The notes beneath the pieces are model-generated. The model was not told the DNA's origin. It worked only from the letters and a program-made list of their open reading frames with translations, and did not search any database. Below, piece by piece: positions 3,626 to 33,091 of a stretch of 33,723 nucleotides of DNA. Source of the stretch: Deltaproteobacteria bacterium (GTDB taxonomy: Bacteria; Desulfobacterota; Desulfarculia; Adiutricales; JAFDHD01); the NCBI GenBank assembly GCA_019308995.1, contig JAFDHD010000023.1, forward strand, positions 1-33,723, read 5' to 3'. A program made the position numbers and the translations under genes. Each line of letters begins with the position of its first letter. Positions within the stretch are counted from its first letter, which is position 1.

Positions 3626-6196
3626 ATGCGATTTATTCCGAGACCTTTGATAAAAAGAAGGGCCTGCCTTCTGATGCCGGGTATGCTCCTGGTCTGTGCG
3701 GTCATCATGCTCGGACAAAGCAGCGCTCCGGCGCAGAAACCCCCTGGGCAGCCTCTGAAAAAACCAGGCGCGGCCGACAGGAGTTCGGCCTTGAAGTCCG
3801 GGCGGCTTACTGGAATCCGCCTGGGTACCTTTCCCGACTACTCCCGTCTTATATTTCTTTTTAAAAAGCCGGTGGACAGTTACATGGTCAGGCGGCCGGA
3901 GGTGAACGAACTCTGGCTGGATTTCGGGCCGGACGCCATTCCCAAGGAAGGCCGGTATGAACTGCATGATGAACTAGTCCAGGGTGTGGCTCTGCTTGAA
4001 CAAAACGGCCGGTTGACAGCACGGGTCAAGGTCGGGCTCTCCAGGTTCTCCTTTAGACATTTTTCTACTCCGGATCGAAAGGCTGTGGTCTTAGACCTTC
4101 GTCCTGGGGACCCGATAAAGAGGGCCAGGCCCGCCGTGAGCCGTGCCGCGCTCGAAAAACTGAAGGGTCTGAGCCTTGAGCTGCCCGATCCCAAGGCGAT
4201 CGCCAGAAAAATACGCGCCGCCTTGCCCGCCGACCCGACTCCGGATACAGAGCTCTTTTTTCTAACTCAAGCTGCCGACGATATGGCGCGAGGCAATTTT
4301 GAGGAGGCGATCATCAATCTGAAGCGTCTTTTGAAAAATTTTCCGAACACCAAGTATCGGGACCCGGGTCTCTTTCTCCTGGGAGACGCTTATTATTATT
4401 CATACCAAAACAAGCTTGAACCCCATTTTCTCGAAATTACAGATACTTTCCGAGAAGCAATCGTCACCTTTCCCCAGTCGGCCCTCACGCCTCGCGCCAC
4501 ATTGATGCTCGGCCTGGCTTACCTCAAGATGAACTTCAACAGTGAGGCGGTGGGCTACTTGGAAATCGTCACCAAGGATTTTCCAGATACCCGCTATGCA
4601 GTGCTGGCCTATCTCTACCTGGGTGAAGCCCAGCTCAACCTGGGTGAAGCCGATCTGGCTCAGGAATCCCTTGACACTGTCTTAACCTTCAAGCCCAGCG
4701 GCCACTCTTTTCTGAAGGCTTACTACAAGCTGGGTCAGGTTCACTTTCAAAAAGGTATTTACACCAAGGCGAATGAGGTATTTAAAGAGGTCTTAATTCG
4801 CCAAGAGGATTTCTATCTCGAACACCCTGAAATTCTTTATTATATGGGTGAAGGCTACTTCCATTCCCATCGCCCGGACCTGGCCAGGAGCTACCTTTAT
4901 CACCTGCTGAATATCTACCCTGAATACAAAGCCAAAGACGTGGTCATGGCCCGTATCGGGGACACGTATAAGGAGGAGGGCCGTCATTCAGAAGCCAAGA
5001 AAATCTACCGCATCACTAAAGACATCTTTCCAGAGAGTACCGGGGCCTTGATCAGCCAGCTCCGGCTTGCTGAATATGGCGCGCTCCGGGACTCTTTTAA
5101 GCCGGAGACGATCTTCATCGAACTCGAAGAAGGCGCCAGAGAAGCCACCTTGAAGATGTATCGGGAAATCGTGGCTTCCCAAAAGGAGTCCCCTCTTCTC
5201 CAGCTGGCTATGTTCAAAATCGGTCTCGCTGCCTACTGGCAAAAAAACTATAAAAAAGCCTTGCAGACCTTCAAGGACACCCTGGAAAAATATCCCAAGG
5301 GTTCTATCATCCCGGATGTACATTTTGTTATGAGCAAAACCATCCTGGCCCGGGTAAGAAACCTTTACCGGCAGAAGAAGCACCTGGAGCTGCTCAGTTA
5401 TTTTTTTGAGAATCAGCGGTACATCTCTGAGATTGCCTTGTCAGATATCCGTCTTTACGTGGCTTTGAGCCATCTGGCTCTGGACCTTCCTTCAGAGGCC
5501 ATCGAACTCTTTCTGGCGGATCGAGGCGTGCCCGATTCGGCTGACCAGCGGCTCTTGGGTCTTGGCGAGGCCTACCTTAAAGACAGCCAATATGAGGAGG
5601 CCATAAAGGCCTTAAACCAGTTTTTAAAACGCTATCCCAGGCATGAGAAAAAGGATCAGGCCCTGCTCCACCTGGCTCAAGGTAAAATGAAACAGGGACA
5701 TACAAAGGAAGCCCTGTCTCTTTTTGAAAACGCTATGACTGCCCAGCCCAGGCTTAAAAGGGACGGCGAGTTTCAAAACATGTTGGGCCGGATTTACCTG
5801 GAGCTAGGTCAATATGAAAAGGCGGCCGCGGCCTTGGAGATTGCCGCCAAAGGCCTGGGTGAAGGTCAAGGGAACGCCCAGGATGTCTTCCTGGCTTACG
5901 CTCACCTGGGGCGAGCTCTGGCAAAGGTCAAACGCAAAGGTGAAGCAGCCCAGGCCCTGGACAAGGCGCTCACGGTTCAGCCTGAACAGCCTTTCCCGGA
6001 AGCCCTTTATCTCATAGCGCGAACGAATTTTAATCTGGGCCGCCAAAAAGAAGGCCTTGAGGCCCTGGACCTCGTGTCCAAGGCTGAAGATAGTTTCTGG
6101 AAAATGATGGCCGATCAGGAACTTAAGGTCCGTAAATGGAATCAAGAATTAAACCGGGAGATCGAGAAGGAAATATCGGCTAACCTACAGAAATAA
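3626..6196 (+). CDS. Exported AMIN-like/TPR-repeat protein
   Basis: The 856-residue protein starts with a basic and then hydrophobic segment (about residues 1-36, ending near APAQ) that looks like a signal peptide. Residues about 50-165 form a beta-rich block (GIRLGTFPDYSRLIFLF ... AVVLDLRPGD) resembling AMIN domains of envelope proteins. From about 205 to the end there are many tetratricopeptide-type repeats, such as FEEAIINLKRLLKNFPNTKY and YEEAIKALNQFLKRYPRHEK. It is therefore predicted to be periplasmic and to act as a protein-binding scaffold; the partner is unknown. It has its own sigma-54 promoter, and GAGGGAG lies six bases before ATG. The FlrC-like gene follows after 89 bases. In Vibrio the kinase gene flrB holds this position; this protein has no kinase motif. 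Confidence 0.78.
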   Translation: MRFIPRPLIKRRACLLMPGMLLVCAVIMLGQSSAPAQKPPGQPLKKPGAADRSSALKSGRLTGIRLGTFPDYSRLIFLFKKPVDSYMVRRPEVNELWLDFGPDAIPKEGRYELHDELVQGVALLEQNGRLTARVKVGLSRFSFRHFSTPDRKAVVLDLRPGDPIKRARPAVSRAALEKLKGLSLELPDPKAIARKIRAALPADPTPDTELFFLTQAADDMARGNFEEAIINLKRLLKNFPNTKYRDPGLFLLGDAYYYSYQNKLEPHFLEITDTFREAIVTFPQSALTPRATLMLGLAYLKMNFNSEAVGYLEIVTKDFPDTRYAVLAYLYLGEAQLNLGEADLAQESLDTVLTFKPSGHSFLKAYYKLGQVHFQKGIYTKANEVFKEVLIRQEDFYLEHPEILYYMGEGYFHSHRPDLARSYLYHLLNIYPEYKAKDVVMARIGDTYKEEGRHSEAKKIYRITKDIFPESTGALISQLRLAEYGALRDSFKPETIFIELEEGAREATLKMYREIVASQKESPLLQLAMFKIGLAAYWQKNYKKALQTFKDTLEKYPKGSIIPDVHFVMSKTILARVRNLYRQKKHLELLSYFFENQRYISEIALSDIRLYVALSHLALDLPSEAIELFLADRGVPDSADQRLLGLGEAYLKDSQYEEAIKALNQFLKRYPRHEKKDQALLHLAQGKMKQGHTKEALSLFENAMTAQPRLKRDGEFQNMLGRIYLELGQYEKAAAALEIAAKGLGEGQGNAQDVFLAYAHLGRALAKVKRKGEAAQALDKALTVQPEQPFPEALYLIARTNFNLGRQKEGLEALDLVSKAEDSFWKMMADQELKVRKWNQELNREIEKEISANLQK

Positions 6197-13812: not shown

Positions 13813-14247
13813 ATGTTTCAATTTCCCCTGGAAGCTTTTCTTAAATACCGCCGCCAGCAAGAAGAAACAGAGATGTATGAATTATCCAACCGAATCAGGG
13901 AAATGCGCCAAATCCAGGACGATCTTAAAACCATAAAGGCCAGAGCCGCGAATCTGACCCTGGCGCTGCAGGAACGGACAACCGCAACGGTCACCGCGCC
14001 CGTCATCGCCCTCTACTCGAATTATCTTCATAATCTCCGCAAGTTAGGTTTGGCAACCGCGGATGAGATCAACCGCGCCCAGACCAAAGTCAAAAGACAG
14101 CGTGAAAAACTGATAAAAGCCTCGGTCGGCCGCAAGATCATAGAACGCCTCAAGGAAGGACAGCTTCAGGCCTATATTGATGAGGAGGCCCGCAAGGAAC
14201 ACAAGATCTTCGATGAAATAACCACCCTGAAGGCCGGAAGGAAATGA
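13813..14247 (+). CDS. fliJ: Flagellar export protein FliJ
   Basis: FliJ is the central stalk of the export ATPase ring, like F1-gamma. The 144-residue product is almost wholly alpha-helical coiled coil, starting FQFPLEAFLKYRRQQEETEM (the FliJ 'F-x-L-x-x-V-L-x-x-R' start) and ending with a basic, glutamate-rich helix. Sequence conservation in FliJ is low, so the call rests on length, coiled coil, the N-terminal motif and its position directly after fliI. The end overlaps the next ATG (ATGA). Confidence 0.93.
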   Translation: MFQFPLEAFLKYRRQQEETEMYELSNRIREMRQIQDDLKTIKARAANLTLALQERTTATVTAPVIALYSNYLHNLRKLGLATADEINRAQTKVKRQREKLIKASVGRKIIERLKEGQLQAYIDEEARKEHKIFDEITTLKAGRK

Positions 14248-14930
14248 TGACGACAAGTATGCACAGAACACGGCGCCATCCCGCCTGGCTGACCCTGGAA
14301 TTCATCATTATTATATGCCTGGCCCTAAAAATGGTCCTCGCCGGGGGATATTTCCTCTCACTCACCAAAGGGGCGCCGGTAATCAAAACCTCAATGGCCA
14401 TCGCCGCCGATCCAACTCAGGCCGAAACACAAGGCTCACCTCCTGCACTCCTGTCGCCTCCAAAGGACCTCTCTCTGGTCGAACAGTACAAGGCCATGCT
14501 CCTGGTTCTGAAAAGCAGAGAAAAGACGATTAAAGAAAAAGAACAGCGCCTCAAGGAAAAAGAGGAAGCCTTGAAAGCCCTGCAAAAAGAAACCGAGAAA
14601 AGATCCTCGGAACTGACGGCGCGCCTGAATAAACTTATCAGGCAGAAAGAGGAACTGACCCTTAAACTGGAAAAACTCATTTCAGAACAGAAAATACTTG
14701 AAGACGCCAAAATTACGCATCTCGTCAAAGCCTACAGCGCCATGCGGCCGGAAAACGCCGCCACGCTAGTCAATAGCCTTGACGATGACGTGGCGGTACG
14801 CATCCTGGCTTCCATGACCGGCCGATCTGCAGGTAAAATCCTGGCCTTTGTCGAACCAGTCAAGGCCGCAAGGCTAACAAAGCATCTGGCCGATCATAGA
14901 GTAAGTGGAGTCAAGCCGGAGAAGCAGTAA
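14244..14930 (+). CDS. MotE-like protein (membrane helix, coiled coil, MgtE N-domain fold)
   Basis: The 228-residue product has one membrane helix (about 17-40), a proline-rich linker, a long charged coiled coil (about 75-150), and a C-terminal helical segment reading YSAMRPENAATLVNSLDDDV ... ILASMTGRSAGKILAFVEP. That segment resembles the intracellular N domain of MgtE, as in MotE/YlxF-type proteins placed after fliJ. In Sinorhizobium MotE chaperones the periplasmic stator protein MotC; equivalence here is not shown. The body would be extracytoplasmic. The ATG overlaps the fliJ stop. It is the last gene before a hairpin and the fliK promoter. Confidence 0.8.
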   Translation: MMTTSMHRTRRHPAWLTLEFIIIICLALKMVLAGGYFLSLTKGAPVIKTSMAIAADPTQAETQGSPPALLSPPKDLSLVEQYKAMLLVLKSREKTIKEKEQRLKEKEEALKALQKETEKRSSELTARLNKLIRQKEELTLKLEKLISEQKILEDAKITHLVKAYSAMRPENAATLVNSLDDDVAVRILASMTGRSAGKILAFVEPVKAARLTKHLADHRVSGVKPEKQ

Positions 14931-15180: not shown

Positions 15181-15227
15181 TCTTTATAACTAGCTTACAT
15201 TACTAATAAATTGTCCTTGGTTTATTG

Positions 15228-15242
15228 TGGCACGTCTATTGC
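15228..15242 (+). promoter_or_regulatory. Sigma-54 promoter of the fliK-flgD-flgE operon
   Basis: TGGCACGTCTATTGC is a perfect -24/-12 element with GG-N10-GC. The expected start is near 15254, about 30 bases before the chosen fliK start. It overlaps an in-frame TTG and lies just before an in-frame ATG at 15249, which rules those out as main starts. Confidence 0.9.
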
Positions 15243-19671: not shown

Positions 19672-19686
19672 TGGCACGCACCTTGC
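19672..19686 (+). promoter_or_regulatory. Sigma-54 promoter of the motA-to-fliA operon
   Basis: TGGCACGCACCTTGC is a perfect -24/-12 element with GG-N10-GC. The expected start is near 19698, 28 bases before motA. No further terminator or clear promoter is seen to the right edge, so this may drive the whole stator, switch and export operon. Confidence 0.9.
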
Positions 19687-19725: not shown

Positions 19726-20490
19726 ATGGATCTGGCGACTTTTATCGGTGTTATCGCTTCTTTTAGTATATTGGTCTCTGCCATCATGATGGGCAGCGGC
19801 CTCTCAGCTTTTATCAACATCCCTGCTGTCCTTATTGTCCTGGGTGGAACGATCTGCGCCACCATGATCAACTACCCCCTTAAAGACGTGATTGGTAGTA
19901 TTAAGGTGGTGCAGAAAGCCTTTTTCGCCAAGACCTTGACCTTTGGGGAAATCATCACCAATTTCGTCAATTATGCTACAAGGGCGCGCAAGGAGGGCAT
20001 CCTGGCCCTGGAGGCTACCTTACCGGAAATTCAGGATGATTTTTTGAAAAAGGGCCTGCAGCTCACGATTGACGGCCTGGAACCTCAATCCATCACCGAG
20101 ATCCTGGAAACCGAGATTGCATTCGTTGAAGACCGCCACCGACTGGGCGCGGAATTGTTTCAGACCATGGGTACCTTTTCTCCAGCTTTTGGGATGATCG
20201 GTACCTTGATCGGTCTGGTGCAAATGTTGCAAAGCATGGACGATCCCTCGACTATCGGCCCGTCCATGGCCGTGGCCTTGATTACGACCTTTTATGGCGC
20301 CGTGCTGGCCAATGTCCTCTTTCTGCCCATTTCTGGCAAACTGCGCACCAGGAGCAAGGAGGAAAGCCTGCTCAAAGAGATGATCCTCCATGGAATCATC
20401 TCCCTCTCACGAGGAGATAACCCGCGGATTATTGAGCAGAAACTGCACTCATTCCTGCCGCCCGTCCTGAGAGTCTCCACCTTCGAGTAG
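19726..20490 (+). CDS. motA: Flagellar stator protein MotA
   Basis: MotA is the inner-membrane stator subunit whose cytoplasmic loop pushes FliG. The 254-residue product has four membrane helices, the cytoplasmic stretch RARKEGILALE (the family R-x-x-G-x-x-x-L-E with charged torque residues), and GTFSPAFGMIGTLIGLVQML containing the conserved proline of the ion path. The second conserved proline is in VLFLPISGKL. It is the first gene of its operon, with GAGGGGGAG before the ATG. Two MotB-like genes follow. Confidence 0.96.
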   Translation: MDLATFIGVIASFSILVSAIMMGSGLSAFINIPAVLIVLGGTICATMINYPLKDVIGSIKVVQKAFFAKTLTFGEIITNFVNYATRARKEGILALEATLPEIQDDFLKKGLQLTIDGLEPQSITEILETEIAFVEDRHRLGAELFQTMGTFSPAFGMIGTLIGLVQMLQSMDDPSTIGPSMAVALITTFYGAVLANVLFLPISGKLRTRSKEESLLKEMILHGIISLSRGDNPRIIEQKLHSFLPPVLRVSTFE

Positions 20491-20503: not shown

Positions 20504-21301
20504 ATGGCGCGTAAAAAAGAAGAAAAAAGGCCTGAGTGGGAAAAAACCAATATTGGATTGATGATGTTCACCGCGCTGATGATCATTCTTCTCGCCTTCT
20601 TCATCATGCTCTCGACCATGTCCGTCATAGACGAACGCCGGGAGCAAGTGGTCCTCGGTTCCCTGATCGGCTCCTTTGGCATCCTTCCAGGCGGCCTCTC
20701 CCCAACACGCACCGAAGCCCACAGCCTGGCCCCGCCTTCAAGCCCCCTGCAAGTTATTAAATCCGACATGGAACAGTTGAAGGATATCTTCACTCAAAGG
20801 ACGATCGAGGATAAGATCAATTTTCTCAGAGGACGAACACGCCGTATTATCAGCTTTCAGGAAGCGGTCTTATTTCCTCCCGGCGAGGTGGAAATCCTGC
20901 CTGAAATGAAACCGGTCCTGATGGAACTTGCCAACGTTTTACGAGGATCAGACTACCCGATCATCATCGAGGGACATACTGACGACCTGCCGCCGCGAGA
21001 CGAAACATTGATCAACAACTGGTTCGTTTCGGCGACTCGATCAGCCAACATCCTGAAATTCTTTATAAATGAAGGAGGGCTCGACCCCAACCGTCTCTCG
21101 GCCTTCGGGTATGCCGGTTACAGACCGGTTGCAGCGAACAACTCTCCTGAAAACAGAAGGCGGAATCGCCGTGTTGACCTGATTCTGGATACGACCCGCC
21201 AGATGGCCCTCTGGCGCTATCAAAAGGAATCCTGGAAATTGAAACCGCTCACCTTTAAAGGCTTCACTTTTCATCTTTTTGGCGGAAAGGAAACCCCCTG
21301 A
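20504..21301 (+). CDS. MotB-like protein lacking the ion-binding Asp (MotB1)
   Basis: The 265-residue protein has one N-terminal membrane helix (about 17-41) and a C-terminal OmpA/MotB peptidoglycan-binding domain (IIIEGHTDDLPPRDE, then SATRSANILKFFI and NRRRNRRVDLIL). In the helix it reads FTALMIILLAFFIMLSTMS where the neighbour MotB2 reads FSDLITLLLTFFVLLITMS. The universally required ion-carrying Asp is thus Ala24 (GCG, 20573-20575). A conserved-looking segment LGSLIGSFGILPGGLSP follows the helix. Alone with MotA it should not conduct ions. It may form a mixed dimer with MotB2, anchor or plug the stator, or do another job. It starts 13 bases after motA. Confidence 0.85.
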   Translation: MARKKEEKRPEWEKTNIGLMMFTALMIILLAFFIMLSTMSVIDERREQVVLGSLIGSFGILPGGLSPTRTEAHSLAPPSSPLQVIKSDMEQLKDIFTQRTIEDKINFLRGRTRRIISFQEAVLFPPGEVEILPEMKPVLMELANVLRGSDYPIIIEGHTDDLPPRDETLINNWFVSATRSANILKFFINEGGLDPNRLSAFGYAGYRPVAANNSPENRRRNRRVDLILDTTRQMALWRYQKESWKLKPLTFKGFTFHLFGGKETP

Positions 21302-21308
21302 GGACGTT

Positions 21309-22052
21309 ATGGCCAGGAAGAAAAGTTCAGAAGACCCGAGCGCTAAGGTCAACCCCTTGGGATGGATGGTGACCTTCTCTGACCTCATTACCTTGTTGCT
21401 GACCTTCTTTGTCCTCCTTATTACCATGTCGTCCATGGATGTTAAAACCGTTCGGCAGGCCTTTGAAGCCTTCACCGGCGGCTCCGGGCCTTTCGAATTC
21501 GGCAAAAAAGGCAAGATGGAGGACCTGGCCCAAATCATCTCCCTAATCAACCGCGCCTCGCCTCAAACGCTCCTGGAAAACATAAACATCAAGGAAGTCA
21601 TTTTCAAATTTGATGAGGCTGGTTACCAGCGCCTCATGAAGCTCCTCGAGAAAGATATAAAAGTGAGAGTTACTGAAAAGGGTCTGGCCATTCAGCTGGC
21701 TAATTACATCCTTTTCAATGAAGGGGAATCAGGTCTTCGTATGGAGCATCTTCCTCTGCTGCACCGACTGGCCGGGGTTATCCGGGCAGTAGGCCGCTAT
21801 CCCGTGTCCATCGAAGGGCATACCGATGGAACTGAGGCTGAAGGCGGCTCCGGAGAATTCGCCTGGCAGCTCTCCCTGGCTCGAGCCATTAATATCCTGG
21901 AATACTTTACTGAAGATGAAGGCCTTTCTCCAGGCCGGTTTCGAGTGGGAGGATACGGGCCTTCAAAACCGATTTATCCTGACGACATCCCGGAAACTAG
22001 GGTCAAGAACCGAAGAATTGAGATAATATTATATAAAGAACAACTTGGTTAG
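21309..22052 (+). CDS. motB: Flagellar stator protein MotB (canonical Asp, MotB2)
   Basis: The 247-residue protein carries the canonical MotB membrane helix with Asp25 (WMVTFSDLITLLLTFFVLL), a plug/linker region (about 45-100), and an OmpA-like peptidoglycan-binding domain (VSIEGHTDG, LSLARAINILEYF, VKNRRIEIIL). With MotA it forms the ion-driven stator anchored to the cell wall. A TTG at 21279 is in frame, but GAGG five bases before the ATG at 21309 sets the start. It begins seven bases after motB1 and runs up to fliL. Confidence 0.94.
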   Translation: MARKKSSEDPSAKVNPLGWMVTFSDLITLLLTFFVLLITMSSMDVKTVRQAFEAFTGGSGPFEFGKKGKMEDLAQIISLINRASPQTLLENINIKEVIFKFDEAGYQRLMKLLEKDIKVRVTEKGLAIQLANYILFNEGESGLRMEHLPLLHRLAGVIRAVGRYPVSIEGHTDGTEAEGGSGEFAWQLSLARAINILEYFTEDEGLSPGRFRVGGYGPSKPIYPDDIPETRVKNRRIEIILYKEQLG

Positions 22053-22062
22053 AGGAGTAGTT

Positions 22063-22602
22063 ATGGCTGATGAAGAGAGAGAAGAGGTAACTGAGGAAGC
22101 GGCGGGCGGCGGGAAAGGCATGCTGCCTTTATTGATTATCGTGGCGGCCGTGGTGGTGGTGCTCTTGGGAGCGGTTATTGCCTTGCTGATATTTGCTCCT
22201 GGTGTGGTTCCTTTTGGGGGAGAAAAGCCGGCCGCTGAGACTGACTCTTCAGTCCAGGAGTCTGCCGCAAAGGAGGAAACTCAGGAGGAAGCTGAAACCC
22301 TGGGTATCCTGTACTCTATGCCGCCCTTCATCGTTAATCTGGTTGACCCGACGGTGCAGCGCTACCTGAAGCTCAAAGTGGAATTAGAGCTGAACAACAA
22401 AGAAGTTCAAGCCGAGATTGATCTCCGAATGCCTCAGATAAAAGACAGCCTTCTGGTGCTGCTTTCCAGTAAAACTTTTATTGATATTAAAACGGTCGAA
22501 GGCAAGATGCGGCTCAGAATGGAGATTATCGGCCGCATCAATAATTTCTTGACAAGTGGCCGCGTAAAAAACGTTTACTTCACTGAATTTGTAGTCCAGT
22601 GA
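22063..22602 (+). CDS. fliL: Flagellar basal-body-associated protein FliL
   Basis: FliL is a single-pass membrane protein that rings and supports the stator. The 179-residue product has an acidic N-terminus, a membrane helix (about 20-45), an acidic linker, and the conserved periplasmic domain starting PPFIVNLVDPTVQRYLKLKV and ending GRVKNVYFTEFVVQ. A TTG at 22045 lies upstream in frame, but AGAGGAG is placed for the ATG at 22063. It follows motB2 and precedes fliM by ten bases. A divergent second copy lies at 32393. Confidence 0.95.
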   Translation: MADEEREEVTEEAAGGGKGMLPLLIIVAAVVVVLLGAVIALLIFAPGVVPFGGEKPAAETDSSVQESAAKEETQEEAETLGILYSMPPFIVNLVDPTVQRYLKLKVELELNNKEVQAEIDLRMPQIKDSLLVLLSSKTFIDIKTVEGKMRLRMEIIGRINNFLTSGRVKNVYFTEFVVQ

Positions 22603-32392: not shown

Positions 32393-33091
32393 ATGGCTGA
32401 GGAAAACGACGAACTGCTGAAAGACACGGACCTCGAGGAAGAAGACCTGGAAGGAAGCGATCAACTCCTCCACGCAGAAGGCTTTCCTGCTGAGACGCCT
32501 TTAGTGGAAGACGCTGGCCCTCCGACCAAAAAGGTCGAACTAGATGTTGAAGAACTGCCAGAAGAGTTGGCCAGGGAAGAAGAGCCGGAAGAAGAGGAAG
32601 AGGAACACCTGGAAGAAGAAGCCGTCGAGGAAGAAGAACCCCGGAAATTAAAAACCGCTAAATACAAGCTTTTCATAGCCGGAACTGCCGGCGGACTGAT
32701 CCTGATTCTGATCATAGCCGGACTTATTCTCTTGATCGGCCCTGGCAAGAAAAAGGTGGACCAAGTCGGATCAGCCGAACCGGTCAGGCAAAAACTCCTG
32801 GTCAACATGAAACCGTTCATCATTGACTTCTCCTCCTCCGGCCAGGACGTGATCCTCAAACTCACCATGTCACTGACCTTCTCCAGCCCGGAAGCCGAGG
32901 CTGAATTCAAAAATCAGCAGGTCGTCATGCGGGACCTGATTTACCGCTTCCTGCAGGGACACGCCTCGGTTGATCTCAATAAGCGCGCCGCCTTACTGTC
33001 CCTGCAGAAAGATATCGCCAGATTGATTAACTCGGCCCTGACCCGAGGGCAGGTAAACATGGTCCTGTTCCAGGAGCTCCTGCTGGTTTGA
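32393..33091 (+). CDS. Second FliL-family protein with long acidic N-terminus
   Basis: The 232-residue protein has an 85-residue cytoplasmic N-terminal part that is extremely acidic (runs of Glu around 61-82), a basic stop (KLKTAKYK), one membrane helix (about 91-116), and a C-terminal domain that follows the FliL layout: VNMKPFIIDFSSSGQDVILK, LTMSLTF, then MRDLIYRFLQG and a final ALTRGQVNMVLFQELLLV. The family end VYFTEFVVQ is degenerate. It is a divergent FliL paralogue, six bases after fliA. It may attach to the stator or basal body; the acidic tail has no known partner. Confidence 0.82.
   Translation: MAEENDELLKDTDLEEEDLEGSDQLLHAEGFPAETPLVEDAGPPTKKVELDVEELPEELAREEEPEEEEEEHLEEEAVEEEEPRKLKTAKYKLFIAGTAGGLILILIIAGLILLIGPGKKKVDQVGSAEPVRQKLLVNMKPFIIDFSSSGQDVILKLTMSLTFSSPEAEAEFKNQQVVMRDLIYRFLQGHASVDLNKRAALLSLQKDIARLINSALTRGQVNMVLFQELLLV

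Follow-up and report, generated by a model that had tools for sequence, protein, structure and literature searches.

In the 5:2 stator model, the two MotB aspartates of one stator work alternately. The two PomB aspartates have been described in different states, one engaged and the other disengaged, and three threonines are conserved in all sodium-driven stators (PMC10374538). One ion drives a 36-degree step, with about ten steps per turn, and the two plugs act in trans (PMC11940233). In Aquifex aeolicus, two motB genes follow one motA in a motA/motB1/motB2 operon, their transmembrane (TM) regions are 97% identical and chimeras of both function (PMC4525482). In Myxococcus, AglR works together with two B proteins, AglQ and AglS, which may or may not pair with each other and for each of which the conserved Asp is described (PMC9389320). 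A MotB paralogue without the Asp, or a stator containing one, was not described in the open-access literature that we searched, and the terms "two motB", "tandem" and "aspart" are absent from the main text of a 2025 survey of MotAB evolution (PMC12505986). Here, we analyse a flagellar locus in which one motA is followed by an Asp-less motB paralogue, motB1, and by an Asp-bearing motB2.

Results

Organisation of the locus

The window, that is, the whole stretch of 33,723 nucleotides that was analysed, is a large flagellar cluster of a desulfobacterial MAG, extending from flgB to flhA and beyond. A terminator-like hairpin lies 3′ of flgE and is followed by a sigma-54 (−24/−12) promoter-like site with an exact TGGCAC-N5-TTGC match (TGGCACGCACCTTGC, 19672..19686), this site and the stator and fliL genes below, with the features mapped inside them, being on the + strand. 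Downstream of this site come motA (19726..20490), motB1 (20504..21301), motB2 (21309..22052) and fliL (22069..22602), with 7 to 16 bases between neighbouring genes. One motA followed by two MotB-like genes was the starting point of the preliminary description, whose genes, order and coordinates were all correct. MotA is a stator A subunit of the PomA/MotP (sodium) type (PF01618, 111.6 bits; NCBIfam PomA, 6.7e-86), and FliL, a stator-associated protein, belongs to the same gene run (PF03748, 92.5 bits). The list of open reading frames starts motB2 at a TTG at 21279; an ATG at 21309 (TGAGGACGTTATG), directly 3′ of the motB1 stop, is more likely to be where the gene begins, and with it the aspartate of MotB2 is residue 25, as in the preliminary description.

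Four exact TGGCAC-N5-TTGC sites occur in the window (3571, 7748, 15228 and 19672, + strand), all of them close to where a flagellar gene or group of genes begins, and two sigma-54 activators are encoded within it. The TTG-started fliK-like frame that begins at 15225 contains the site at 15228, and the real start codon of this gene therefore probably lies further downstream.

Three further proteins of the cluster deserve mention. Between fliJ and fliK, positions 14244-14930 encode an MgtE_N-like protein (25.3 bits, just below the cut-off) that resembles MotE/FlgY/FlbB, the E-ring protein of PMC13023049. A sigma-54 site precedes the frame of an 856-aa TPR-repeat protein (3626-6196), which might act as a scaffold in the periplasm, as MotK and PflA do. 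Finally, a second FliL-like protein (32393-33091; PF03748, 41.9 bits, above the cut-off) is encoded 3′ of the flagellar sigma factor gene. Because a weak match to it is found in the same neighbourhood of L190, a genome whose two MotBs both have Asp, a pair of FliLs may go with a pair of MotBs.

MotB1 is a MotB-family protein without the ion-carrying aspartate

At its N-terminus, MotB1 has a single TM helix and a plug, matched by MotB_plug (PF13677, residues 4-58, 31.1 bits against a cut-off of 24) and modelled as helices 17-39 and 44-58. At its C-terminus, an OmpA-like peptidoglycan-binding domain (PF00691, residues 123-222, 59.7 bits against a cut-off of 27.2) conserves GHTD and the R179 region, and Foldseek matches the periplasmic domain to those of MotS, PomB and MotB. 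Both Pfam domains are above cut-off in MotB2 as well (MotB_plug 60.7 and OmpA 56.6 bits). What is absent from the TM helix of MotB1 is the ion-carrying Asp, replaced by Ala24 (codon 20573..20575), and for this reason we class it as a MotB-family paralogue and not as an ion-conducting MotB. MotB1 is below the NCBIfam cut-offs for MotB-type equivalogs, the best score being MotD with 122.6 bits against 283, and MotB2 is likewise under its own MotB-type cut-offs.

The opposition of Ala24 in MotB1 to Asp25 in MotB2, originally read from the shared FF pair, was confirmed: the two helices align without gaps, with 10 of 21 positions identical, and in an alignment of 120 sequences both residues fall in a single column, which shows the expected residue in every MotB. 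The segment after the MotB1 helix had been noted as distinctive. It is indeed conserved, but it corresponds to the canonical plug region within the MotB_plug match (plug helix, residues 44-58, 20633..20677, from the AlphaFold2 model and the alignment). The truly distinctive addition of MotB1 is a C-terminal tail beyond the OmpA-like domain, conserved among MotB1 homologues as F-x-[YF]-x-x-F-x-F (here LTFKGFTFHLF, residues 249-259, 21248..21280) and modelled as strands with a mean pLDDT of about 82. The AlphaFold models, both of monomers, show a break between the TM and plug helices of MotB1, and a single unbroken helix (residues 16-56), of low confidence at the plug, in MotB2.

In intact clusters, the Asp-less MotB precedes an Asp-bearing one

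A search of 60 related genomes yielded 30 fetched loci, every one with a MotB1 carrying Ser or Ala and then an Asp-bearing MotB2, and 29 of them with motA upstream. Candidatus Adiutrix, Desulfocarbo and Dethiosulfatarculus are among the related genomes, and the closest record with a name belongs to a Deltaproteobacteria MAG whose MotB1 is 81% identical. Wider sets came from scanning 84,980 species genomes, which gave 80 named loci, and from a phylum-wide search of 395 genomes. After deduplication, the first MotB, directly after motA and before a second motB (n = 89), carried Ser in 69 cases, Ala in 11, Thr in 4, Gly in 4, Cys in 1 and Asp in 0, while the second MotB carried Asp in 101 of 101 and a lone MotB after motA in 33 of 33; because the loci were gathered by similarity to MotB1, these counts express association and not prevalence. 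The Asp-less state was thus seen in every intact motA-motB-motB cluster found. The preliminary description had proposed to look among homologues for conservation of the change and for an adjoining Asp-bearing partner, and both expectations held: the residue was S, A, T, G or C in 89/89 motA-adjacent first MotBs, and the partner was always present where the contig was intact. Within the phylum, this Asp-less type extends over at least 18 groups at family level, and it also occurs in a Nitrospinota MAG and in Myxococcota-labelled MAGs.

Six apparent cases of an Asp-less MotB without a partner proved to be contig-cut or fragmented, and four of the six retain a fragment of an Asp-bearing MotB2. 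A pseudogene or an assembly error was rejected, as the protein is 81% identical in a same-genus genome, dN/dS is low and dozens of independent assemblies agree on the state of the site. A displaced acidic residue within the MotB1 helix was found in only 2 of 89 sequences, at the helix start. These two, with Glu at that position, belong to a subgroup of four loci with Gly at the MotB1 ion site (L181, L183, L184 and L185), whose MotB2s cluster apart from the main MotB2 clade.

Ion helix and plug are conserved differently in the two MotBs

In a comparison with a same-genus genome, in which dS was close to saturated, dN/dS was 0.02 for MotA, about 0.05 for MotB1 and 0.09 for MotB2. Purifying selection on MotB1 is strong, and its dN/dS value and OmpA score bear out the earlier view that it is not decaying and keeps a full peptidoglycan-binding domain. 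In gapped alignments, pairwise identity of the ion helix was 0.69 for MotB2, 0.58 for lone MotBs and 0.50 for MotB1; that of the plug was 0.40 for MotB1, 0.41 for lone MotBs and 0.29 for MotB2; and that of the remainder was 0.34, 0.35 and 0.39 for MotB1, MotB2 and lone MotBs, respectively. The plug difference between MotB1 and MotB2 is moderate with gaps allowed (0.40 vs 0.29, the values used here), an ungapped comparison (0.43 vs 0.20) having exaggerated it. By these figures, MotB2 holds the ion path most strictly and has a relaxed plug, and MotB1 shows the opposite pattern.

At single positions, Asp25 of MotB2 is invariant in 90 homologues, and in 102 MotB1 sequences Phe32-Phe33 and the plug residue Ser53 are invariant and Phe58 is nearly so. 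A small residue at the ion site without exception (S, A, T, G or C) and an FF pair kept in 100% of MotB1 helices are what would be expected if this helix were tightly packed inside a pore.

One MotA, probably sodium-driven, accompanies two MotBs

Whole-genome searches found exactly one MotA and two MotBs, all of them in the cluster, in 11 of 27 genomes, including that of the window and one single-contig genome, and the flagella of these 11 must therefore run on the cluster. The genome of the window has motA as its single MotA match, four other MotA/TolQ/ExbB matches having been discarded because they do not match MotA at 1e-10. Other genomes have additional MotA and MotB genes, for example in the Desulfarculaceae group. 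Seven genomes of the Adiutrix order (G002, G004, G006, G007, G008, G009 and G021) also have, away from the stator cluster, an extra MotB_plug protein with an open frame of 390-484 aa, which in one of them adjoins a remote MotA-like gene.

MotA residues T160, T187 and T188 correspond to PomA T158, T185 and T186, an equivalence established through the constant +2 offset shared with PomA G154 and A182. All three are Thr in 95 of 95 one-A-two-B operons, as found in sodium-type stators, and G156, A184, P153 and P201 are invariant over the same 95 operons. The MotA pore looks intact and of the sodium type, and the coupling ion is probably Na+.

A clade of MotB1 carries the aspartate

Eight tandem motB-motB pairs have Asp in both MotBs and no adjoining motA. 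Five of these pairs were inspected (L190-L194), and three, L190, L191 and L194, sit among rod and P-ring genes. Each of the seven Asp-Asp genomes checked has a single MotA elsewhere; six have exactly two MotBs, and the seventh has a third. The first MotB of this clade has a canonical ion helix and the MotB1 C-terminal tail, and it groups with MotB1. MotB1 is accordingly an orthologous subfamily, some members of which have a normal ion helix. This clade also shows that the one-A-two-B arrangement does not require loss of the Asp.

How did the Asp-less helix arise? With the Asp column removed, a tree built by a quick method and with many weak branches places 50 MotB1 representatives in one group (SH-aLRT 84) and 41 of 52 MotB2s in a starred group. 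This topology suggests that the duplication is old and took place before these families spread. In both trees, quick ones with many weak branches, the Asp-bearing MotB1 clade is nested inside the Asp-less ones. Such nesting favours loss of the Asp followed by its regain, but the AU test is borderline (p 0.049), and several losses may have occurred instead. Partner TM identity averages 0.35 in the Asp-less group vs 0.74 in the Asp-Asp clade. Transfer of the MotB2 TM helix into the Asp-bearing MotB1s by gene conversion was considered and set aside, since their helix is similar to the other MotB2s of the clade too.

Discussion

We infer the heterodimer, its stoichiometry, its step size and its ion from these observations. 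The explanation that we consider best, at somewhat better than an even chance, is that MotB1 and MotB2 form an obligate hetero-axle in the MotA pentamer (MotA5:MotB1:MotB2), with MotB2 carrying the ion and MotB1 as a passive half, plug and anchor. In such a stator, MotB2 would provide the sole ion-binding Asp, and MotB1, with a small uncharged residue at the ion position, would be the other half of the axle; its better-conserved plug would hold unbound stators shut, and its periplasmic part, which includes the additional tail, would serve as an anchor to peptidoglycan. Taken together, the 36-degree steps and the two aspartate states reported for known stators (PMC11940233, PMC10374538) imply that one Asp per axle would turn the MotA wheel in 72-degree steps, with about 5 ions per turn vs about 10. 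The full proposal, a natural hetero-axle stator that has one ion site, completes a turn in five 72-degree steps on five ions, divides labour between an ion-carrying and a plug/anchor B subunit and is widespread in the whole phylum, we hold more tentatively, at a little short of an even chance. Among the options raised in the preliminary description, the heterodimer with a single ion site is the best-supported reading, helped by the presence of one MotA per two MotBs, the split in conservation between plug and ion helix, and the Asp-bearing MotB1 clade. Several points weigh against it: MotB2 could form homodimers with MotA while MotB1 does something else, the plug difference is moderate, the AlphaFold models are of single chains, and the Asp-Asp clade keeps both aspartates in a one-A-two-B arrangement.

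A rival reading, which we judge unlikely though worth serious attention, would place MotB1 outside MotA, as a scaffold that is tethered to the membrane, bound to peptidoglycan and attached to a periplasmic ring or FliL through its tail, and that positions MotA5MotB2(2) around the rotor, a role that might resemble that of MotXY, PflA/B or MotK in other lineages. The conserved periplasmic domain and tail, a TM helix less conserved than that of MotB2, and the MotE/E-ring-like protein, TPR protein and second FliL in the same cluster would all suit such a scaffold. Nevertheless, the strictly small ion-site residue, the invariant FF pair and the conserved plug would have no obvious use there, and in each of the intact Asp-less clusters found, motB1 directly follows motA and directly precedes motB2. 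From sequence, the strongest case for MotB1 acting inside MotA is made by the clade with Asp in a canonical ion helix, which speaks for a position of MotB1 within the MotA pore.

Given what is established about MotB, loss of the Asp should abolish ion conduction. MotB1 homodimers, or stators containing MotB1, might accordingly be non-conducting dummies or brakes that compete with MotA5MotB2(2) and tune speed or torque, and a single MotA common to both MotBs fits this role; yet the tandem is constant and tightly spaced and no genome was found with MotB1 lost from the cluster, which suggests an obligate partner because a regulator should be lost often, and we regard this reading as improbable. 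Least probable of all seems free assembly, in which active MotB2 homodimers and half-active heterodimers would coexist in a ratio that sets the output. Both proteins do keep a TM segment of the plug family and an OmpA-like domain as in MotB, but MotB2 homodimers would be poorly plugged given the weak conservation of the MotB2 plug.

If the hetero-axle exists, a natural one-Asp stator would directly test the need for two sites, the step size, and the coupling ratio against torque and speed, with the Asp-Asp clade as a ready comparison. A one-Asp stator is also at odds with the claim that every stator B subunit has this Asp.

How does this locus compare with the described systems? It shares with canonical MotA5MotB2 and PomA5PomB2 the MotA pore residues, the MotB plug, the OmpA-like anchor, the gene order, the FliL neighbour and the sodium-type threonines, and differs from them in having two distinct MotBs per MotA, one without the Asp. 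The MotB-like protein DVU_2228 of Desulfovibrio vulgaris (3KHN), of which only the periplasmic fragment has been solved, is one of the relatives of known structure that come closest to the periplasmic domain of MotB1, with 34% identity. Myxococcus AglR/AglQ/AglS likewise combines one A protein with two B proteins, but it serves gliding and not flagella, and the Asp is present in both AglQ and AglS. In Aquifex aeolicus, the duplicated MotBs have near-identical TM helices, whereas the partners of the Asp-less group fall far from such identity, and in the present locus the two helices agree at fewer than half of their positions and one of them is without the Asp.
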